Of a stretch of 46,900 nucleotides of DNA, positions 4,644-10,497 are shown one piece after another (the stretch's first letter is position 1; every line of letters starts with the position of its first letter). The position numbers were made by a program, and so were the translations under genes. Below the pieces are notes generated by a model. The model was not told the DNA's origin and ran no database searches. It saw only the letters and a program-made list of their open reading frames with translations. This DNA is from Akkermansiaceae bacterium (GTDB taxonomy: Bacteria; Verrucomicrobiota; Verrucomicrobiia; Verrucomicrobiales; Akkermansiaceae). The stretch is from positions 1-46,900 of the forward strand of contig JALOUA010000006.1 of NCBI GenBank assembly GCA_025457625.1. Reading direction: 5' to 3'.

Positions 4644-4677
4644 GAAATTTGAGATTTGAGATTTGAGATTTGAGATT
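4644..4677. repeat. Heptanucleotide tandem repeat (GAGATTT)n between rpsQ and rplN
   Basis: gaaattt gagattt gagattt gagattt gagatt. Confidence 0.9.
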
Positions 4678-4992: not shown

Positions 4993-5190
4993 TCAGGCGA
5001 GGGTTTTCTTCGCGTTGAGAGCGGTGAGGACGCGGGCGGTGTCGCGGCGCACCAGGCGGATGCGGGCGGAGTTCTCAAGCTGGCCGGTGGCCTTCTGGAG
5101 GCGGAGGTTGAGGGCTTCCTGCTTGAGGTCGCGCAGACGGACGCTGAGTTCGTCCGGCGTGAGTTCGTTGATGTCTTTGGCTTTGGCCAT
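4993..5190 (-). CDS. rpmC: 50S ribosomal protein L29
   Basis: [37 protein letters not shown]; operon position. Confidence 0.95.
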
Positions 5191-5687: not shown

Positions 5688-6425
5688 TCAATTGCGCGGA
5701 TTCGGACGACGGTCGCCGCCGCGATCACCGCCACGGCCGCCACGGCCGCCGCGATCGCCGCGGTCGCCCTGGGGTCTGCCGCCACCGTTGCCGGTGCCGT
5801 CATCCTCTTTCTTGTTGACCCAGCACTTGACGCCGATGATGCCGTAAACGGTGCGGGCTTCGGCGAAACCGTAGTCAAGCGGGACGCGGAGGGTTTGCAG
5901 CGGCACCTTGCCCTCGCGGTAGCCTTCGGCGCGGGCGATGTCGGCGCCACCGAGGCGGCCGGCACAACGGAGGCGGATGCCTTCGGCACCGAATTCCATG
6001 GCGGTTTGCAGCGCGCGTTTCATGGCGCGGCGGAAACTGATCCGGCGCTCAAGCTGCACGGCGATCTGCTCGGCGACGAGTTGCGCGTCGAGTTCCGGCT
6101 TGCGGATCTCGATGATGTCGATCTTGACCTGCGCACCCTTGCAAAGGTCGCCGATCTCCTTGGTCATGACTTCGATTTCCTTGCCCTGGCGGCCGATGAT
6201 GAGGCCCGGACGCGAGGTGTGAAGGGTGACGCGGACGCTGTTCCATGCGCGTTCGATGACGACGCGGGCAAGGCCGGCGTTCTGGAGCTTGTTCTTGAGG
6301 TATCCGCGGATCGCGAGGTCCTCATGAAGCTTGTCGGTGTAGTCTTTGCCTGCGGCATACCACTTGGAGCGCCAGTCCTTGTTGACGGCGAGGCGGAATG
6401 CGATCGGATTTACTTTCTGGCCCAT
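5688..6425 (-). CDS. rpsC: 30S ribosomal protein S3 with RGG/RGD-rich C-terminal extension
   Basis: MGQKVNPIAFRLAVNKDWRSKWYA...core S3; tail GNGGGRPQGDRGDRGGRGGRGGDRGGDRRPNPRN. Confidence 0.97.
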   Translation of the reverse strand: MGQKVNPIAFRLAVNKDWRSKWYAAGKDYTDKLHEDLAIRGYLKNKLQNAGLARVVIERAWNSVRVTLHTSRPGLIIGRQGKEIEVMTKEIGDLCKGAQVKIDIIEIRKPELDAQLVAEQIAVQLERRISFRRAMKRALQTAMEFGAEGIRLRCAGRLGGADIARAEGYREGKVPLQTLRVPLDYGFAEARTVYGIIGVKCWVNKKEDDGTGNGGGRPQGDRGDRGGRGGRGGDRGGDRRPNPRN

Positions 6426-6904: not shown

Positions 6905-7630
6905 TTACTGCTCTGGGGCTTGAGTTTCGAGGATGGCGAGATCGCCGGGACGAGGGGTTTCCGCCGGATTGTCGAGGGATTCGACAAACAGGCCGCTGAC
7001 GCCCTTGCGGACGTCGGCGAGAATGGCTTTGCCATACGGTTGTTGGCCGCGGGCGAGGCGAAAGGTCATGCCGATGCGGGCACCCTGGCTTTCACCGATG
7101 TTGAGAACGAGCATGCCGCTCTCCTGATCCAGGCTGACGATGCGGGCTTGCTGGAGGGAGCCGGTCCGGACGTCGGGACGCGGCTTTTGGCGCAGGCCGA
7201 GAACCACGTCAAGCTCTCTGAGTGAGGTTTCGACGCGGAGTCGGGCATCCGGATCGGAAACCACGGCCTGGCGGAGGTAATCGTTGACGGATGCGGCAAG
7301 GCGGGTGACGGCGCTTTCGAGCTCGGCATTCCGCTCGTTGGCGATCTGGAGGTCGGCCGCGGCCTGGATGAGGCGGTCATCACCGCCATCGAGCAGGTTT
7401 TTGCCTAGGGCTTCGAGACGCTCGCGGACTTGGGCGAGTTGTTCGGCCGCCTGTTTTTCGCCGCGGTTGGCTTCGGCGAGGCTGCGTTGCAGGACCTGGT
7501 TCTGTTCCTGGAGATCGAGCAGCGCCTGCTGGAGTTGCTCCGCATCCGGCGTCTGGGCCGCGCACATTCCGGCGGCGGCCAGCAGCCCGAGGGCGGCGGC
7601 GACAGCGTGGGAATGGAAGGTGCGGCGCAT
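6905..7630 (-). CDS. Secreted/periplasmic coiled-coil protein of unknown function inside the S10 operon
   Basis: Signal peptide MRRTFHSHAVAAALGLLAAAGMCAAQT followed by long Q/E/L/A coiled coil and C-terminal domain (ARIVSLDQESGMLVLNIGESQGARIGMTF); same strand between rpsS and rplV. Confidence 0.85.
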   Translation of the reverse strand: MRRTFHSHAVAAALGLLAAAGMCAAQTPDAEQLQQALLDLQEQNQVLQRSLAEANRGEKQAAEQLAQVRERLEALGKNLLDGGDDRLIQAAADLQIANERNAELESAVTRLAASVNDYLRQAVVSDPDARLRVETSLRELDVVLGLRQKPRPDVRTGSLQQARIVSLDQESGMLVLNIGESQGARIGMTFRLARGQQPYGKAILADVRKGVSGLFVESLDNPAETPRPGDLAILETQAPEQ

Positions 7631-7659: not shown

Positions 7660-7932
7660 TTACTTCTTGCCGATGCCGCCGTGCTGGCGGAAAATCCGGG
7701 TCGGGGCGAACTCGCCCAGTTTGTGGCCGACCATGTTTTCGGTGACGTAAACGGGGACGAAGGTCTTGCCGTTGTGGACGGCGAAGTTGTGGCTGACGAA
7801 GTCCGGGGTGATCATCGACTTGCGGCTCCAGGTTTTGATGGGCTTGCGGTCGGATCCGGCTTCGGCCATGGCATCGATCTTGGCGAGCAGCTTCTGGTCG
7901 ACGAACGGGCCTTTCTTGAGTGAGCGTGGCAT
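7660..7932 (-). CDS. rpsS: 30S ribosomal protein S19
   Basis: [19 protein letters not shown]...[47 protein letters not shown]. Confidence 0.97.
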
Positions 7933-7934
7933 GG

Positions 7935-7969
7935 GGAATTTGAGATTTCAGATTTGAGATTTCAGATTT
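7935..7969. repeat. Heptanucleotide tandem repeat, alternating GAGATTT/CAGATTT, between rplB and rpsS
   Basis: ggaattt gagattt cagattt gagattt cagattt. Confidence 0.9.
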
Positions 7970-7984
7970 CGGATTGAGAAGGGG

Positions 7985-10469: not shown

Positions 10470-10497
10470 GAGATTTGAGATTTGAGATTTGAAATTC
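10470..10497. repeat. Heptanucleotide tandem repeat (GAGATTT)n between rpsJ and rplC
   Basis: gagattt gagattt gagattt gaaattc. Confidence 0.88.

Follow-up and report, generated by a model that had tools for sequence, protein, structure and literature searches.

The S10 operon of an Akkermansiaceae bacterium carries, between rpsS and rplV, a gene for a predicted exported coiled-coil/beta-barrel protein, whose homologues occupy the same junction throughout the order and recur widely across Verrucomicrobiota. Few gene neighbourhoods in bacteria are as stable as the rpsS-rplV junction; E. coli and Chlamydia trachomatis have the two genes side by side. No report of this insertion was found in the literature. 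We give about an even chance to the reading that best accounts for the data, namely a phylum-level family of exported envelope proteins that would have been gained once, would be made at a ribosome-linked dose and would act as a periplasmic scaffold.

The gene at the junction and its surroundings

The original prediction described an open reading frame of 241 aa between rpsS and rplV, on their strand and with short spacers, and its coordinates proved exact. The junction gene starts with ATG and spans positions 6905-7630 on the minus strand of the window (the whole stretch of 46,900 nucleotides that was analysed), 29 nt from its upstream neighbour rpsS (S19; 7660-7932, minus strand, syntenic in relatives) and 20 nt from its downstream neighbour rplV (L22; 6456-6884, minus strand). 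The operon is otherwise intact, from fusA, rpsJ, rplC, rplD, rplW and rplB through to rpsC, rplP, rpmC, rpsQ, rplN, rplX and rplE, and all the S10/spc genes around the junction gene keep their usual order and lie, as it does, on the minus strand. Between positions 5000 and 11000 of the window no terminator-like site was found on this strand, and the same interval held a single, weak promoter-like match (6196-6223, within rpsC). Short spacers, a shared strand, the lack of terminator-like sites and synteny across families suggest, if only indirectly, that the gene is co-transcribed with rpsS and rplV.

Three further features of the region deserve description. Tandem 7-bp repeats (AATCTSA) occur in three S10/spc spacers (4647-4676, 7938-7974 and 10473-10495), with 9 matches against 0.06 expected, and are also present in the S10-region loci of several relatives; they look like a short tandemly repeated element. 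The rpsC gene (S3; 5688-6425, minus strand) encodes a long Gly/Arg-rich C-terminal tail of the RGG type, and the 142-aa product of rplV has an Ala/Lys-rich C-terminal extension.

Anatomy and predicted fold of the protein

The succession of signal peptide, coiled coil and C-terminal domain previously read from the sequence was upheld by hydropathy and by an AlphaFold model. Hydropathy and a lipobox scan delimit an N-terminal export segment (residues 1-26; 7553-7630, minus strand), with a 15-residue Kyte-Doolittle mean of 2.1 from residue 10 and no lipobox, which is most likely cleaved by signal peptidase I. A lipoprotein nature was considered and rejected, a lipobox being found in 1 of 55 members. 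Nearly all the junction proteins examined have a hydrophobic N-terminal segment, which in some families reads as a transmembrane anchor and not as a cleavable signal; for two homologues apparently devoid of it, the open frame extends beyond the called start and encodes one further upstream. The coiled-coil region follows (residues 30-120; 7271-7543, minus strand), modelled as two long helices (30-79 and 84-120), and then a C-terminal six-stranded beta-barrel (residues 157-236; 6923-7162, minus strand) that is common to all homologues and whose beta domain (161-234) is predicted with a pLDDT of 92-95. The overall pTM is low (0.38), and the arrangement of the parts is therefore unreliable. The coiled coil does not define the protein, since one clade of the class is composed of export segment and barrel only (111-137 aa); a separate model of such a short-form homologue gave the same six-stranded barrel.

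No Pfam or NCBIfam family reached its own cut-off for the protein, and matches to PF06810 (Phage_scaffold, 6e-5, below the cut-off) and to TIGR SMC models were set aside as coiled-coil bias. When the models of the junction protein and of its short form were compared with known structures in two Foldseek runs, FlgT and MreC were among the top three in both, followed by many barrels of F1/V-type ATPases, all with low TM-scores. Because the fold is common to F1/V-type ATPases and other proteins, it says little on function.

FlgT (PF16538), the H-ring protein of the flagellar motor, supplied the best targets (8z5n and 3w1e; TMq 0.26-0.43, for a common barrel fold), and is likewise exported and provided with a small C-terminal beta-barrel. 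The FlgT_C profile gave weak matches in 8 of 24 members, the best with an E-value of 0.0089 and below the gathering threshold, and none in 12 short forms. The other domains of FlgT are absent from the junction protein, however, and its gene resides in a ribosomal-protein operon instead of a flagellar locus. MreC (PF04085) offers a similar combination of N-terminal membrane segment, coiled coil and beta-barrel, and its chains 2j5u and 7eft were among the top structural matches, but MreC has two barrels and the junction protein one. In profile searches the matches to both MreC and TsaP stayed below threshold. Identity with MreC was rejected after hhalign to the genome's own MreC returned a probability of 2.3; the canonical mreB-mreC-mreD cluster lies on another contig. 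As for TsaP, the secretin-associated protein of type IVa pili, a weak profile and fold match involves its C-terminal part (3jc8), but no LysM domain appears among the Pfam matches of the junction protein and no pilus genes surround it.

Conservation and history

Presence in a single strain, which would have made the gene an oddity, is excluded by the homologues found at rpsS-rplV throughout the order. A homologue was detected in 56 of the 59 relatives searched (41 of 41 among high-quality genomes), placed between rpsS and rplV wherever both neighbours lay on the fetched stretch. The same arrangement occurs in 80 of 80 named loci, with rpsS-rplV gaps of 745-873 nt; these are mostly Akkermansiaceae, Akkermansia, Luteolibacter, Haloferula or Verrucomicrobiaceae, some of them from the same genomes as the 59-relative search, and were scanned with the family alignment A3, the broad alignment A1 being too diverse. 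Five other families of the order show it too, in each of their scorable loci (21 of 21). All of these 21 and 80 loci have more than 300 nt between rpsS and rplV, a length that none of their other 13 S10/spc junctions ever exceeds. The gene, present in Akkermansia muciniphila and in every family sampled from its order, thus keeps its position across divergent lineages as conserved genes of ribosomal-protein operons do.

Five second matches to the profile (L053-L057) lie outside the operon and are paralogues. Around those of L053 (2990-4639 of that locus, a tandem pair) and L055 (4841-5992) are encoded proteins that combine a membrane segment at the N-terminus with a coiled coil, and the context of these two neighbourhoods named no known system.

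The median dN/dS of the gene is 0.11, against 0.02-0.05 for rpsS, rplB, rpsC and rplV, over 60 close pairs that include some duplicated genomes. Since homologues lie at the same junction order-wide, invariant residues of the family are distributed over the C-terminal domain and dN/dS is low, the frame is no chance one: it encodes a real protein under strong purifying selection, which evolves faster than the ribosomal proteins. Its CAI is 0.55 compared with 0.57-0.79 for the ribosomal-protein genes; codon bias does not mark it as very highly expressed, and high expression is neither supported nor excluded.

At the level of the phylum, 289 genomes were searched with the family profile, rplV and rpsS and the coordinates compared, and 60 stretches from representatives were read. 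Among the matches listed, ~34 of ~50 assessable families have a homologue immediately before rplV and ~16 have a bare junction, these counts being estimates taken from group codes. The homologues measure 129-251 aa in several other lineages and 232-402 aa in a clade whose S10 operon has come apart between rpsS and this gene, which stays within ~190 nt of rplV. Such split operons (L142-L146, L152, L159 and others) form a single group on a ribosomal-protein tree (99% SH-aLRT), and in one genome (G207) the two halves are ~0.9 Mb apart on one contig; relocation of the gene away from rplV was not seen in any of the broken-operon lineages. Bare junctions have gaps of ~20-230 nt within an intact operon, and one family (f18, locus L140) has a 579-nt gap with no recognisable homologue. 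A search of 20 bare-junction genomes with the short-form profile gave no match elsewhere in 18, and the matches in the remaining two, which sit in longer reading frames elsewhere, were rejected as relocated copies.

On this tree, built from five ribosomal proteins of 76 loci by a quick search and with no outgroup, presence and absence of the gene require 9 changes compared with a mean of 16.3 after shuffling, and 0 of 500 shuffles scored as low. The lack of an outgroup means that the tree does not distinguish gain from loss, and a history of one insertion and subsequent losses is simpler because position, orientation and barrel are identical throughout. The pattern fits one old gain followed by repeated loss; the position in the operon is ancient and, given the bare junctions, lineages can do without the gene on evolutionary time.

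Possible meanings of the operon position

The S10-operon location would tie the dose of the protein to ribosome production. According to this best-supported reading, the gene would have been inserted between rpsS and rplV near the base of Verrucomicrobiota, and vertical descent with several losses would have followed; its product, made from S10-operon mRNA and exported by Sec, would remain in the periplasm, free in solution or anchored by its N-terminal helix, where the coiled coil may oligomerise and the beta-barrel bind a partner, as in scaffolds of the MreC, FlgT and TsaP type. Our best-supported guess is thus a scaffold in the periplasm, of a kind with MreC and FlgT, as its architecture suggests, made at a ribosome-linked dose, as the operon position suggests. 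We count in favour of this reading as a whole the constant placement, the fit to the tree, dN/dS, the N-terminal segments, the FlgT/MreC-like barrel with its weak FlgT_C matches and the lack of a terminator-like site; against it count the sub-threshold level of those matches, the lack of relation to MreC, the commonness of the fold, CAI, the losses and the clade devoid of coiled coil.

The strongest alternative, a possible but less probable one, holds that the gene was inserted once and kept there because excision is risky or strong expression suits it, with no tie to translation. In its favour, any functional link between the protein and the ribosome is conjectural, and the repeated losses were clean. 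Moreover, non-ribosomal genes such as secY, adk, map and infA are widespread in the spc/alpha part of ribosomal-protein operons, and in many bacteria secY, adk and map are carried in neighbouring operons of this type. The junction gene resembles them as a non-ribosomal, in its case envelope-related, member, but its place is within the S10 core, and the one phylum in which it was found, Verrucomicrobiota, is the one searched. Against this alternative stands the split-operon clade, in which the gene remained beside rplV when the operon broke on its other side.

A role in translocon export or membrane-protein biogenesis, with a dose that must follow ribosomes and the SecY of the spc operon, would agree with an exported protein encoded in the S10-spc transcript region and conserved beside rplV, but is improbable, as the searches matched the protein to none of SecDF, YajC, YidC and the periplasmic chaperones, in fold or in sequence. 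That the protein or its mRNA regulates the operon, as a feedback or leader element or a ribosome-acting factor, is very improbable: its strict placement upstream of rplV would suit such a role, but the members examined have an N-terminal export segment, selection acts on the protein, and the operon stays intact after its loss.

Returning to the scaffold, the protein may also link envelope growth to translation capacity, as originally proposed. In its full form this idea, that Verrucomicrobiota have an envelope scaffold of their own whose production the S10 operon fixes to that of ribosomes, and that envelope assembly thereby keeps pace with translation capacity, is tentative and rather doubtful.

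An undescribed protein, predicted to be exported, occupies the rpsS-rplV junction in most families of a whole phylum, and may provide a marker for Verrucomicrobiota. The PVC signature protein of the literature goes by the name CT421.2 in Chlamydia (PMC3444138). For the relative Verrucomicrobium spinosum, one publication describes transposon-saturation data, in which 100 proteins of unknown function are essential, together with methods for deletion (PMC12283558); since these transposon data are published, the essentiality of the junction gene may already be recorded there, and the question it raises is testable now. Through the gene one could ask directly whether cells adjust the building of their envelope to the number of their ribosomes.
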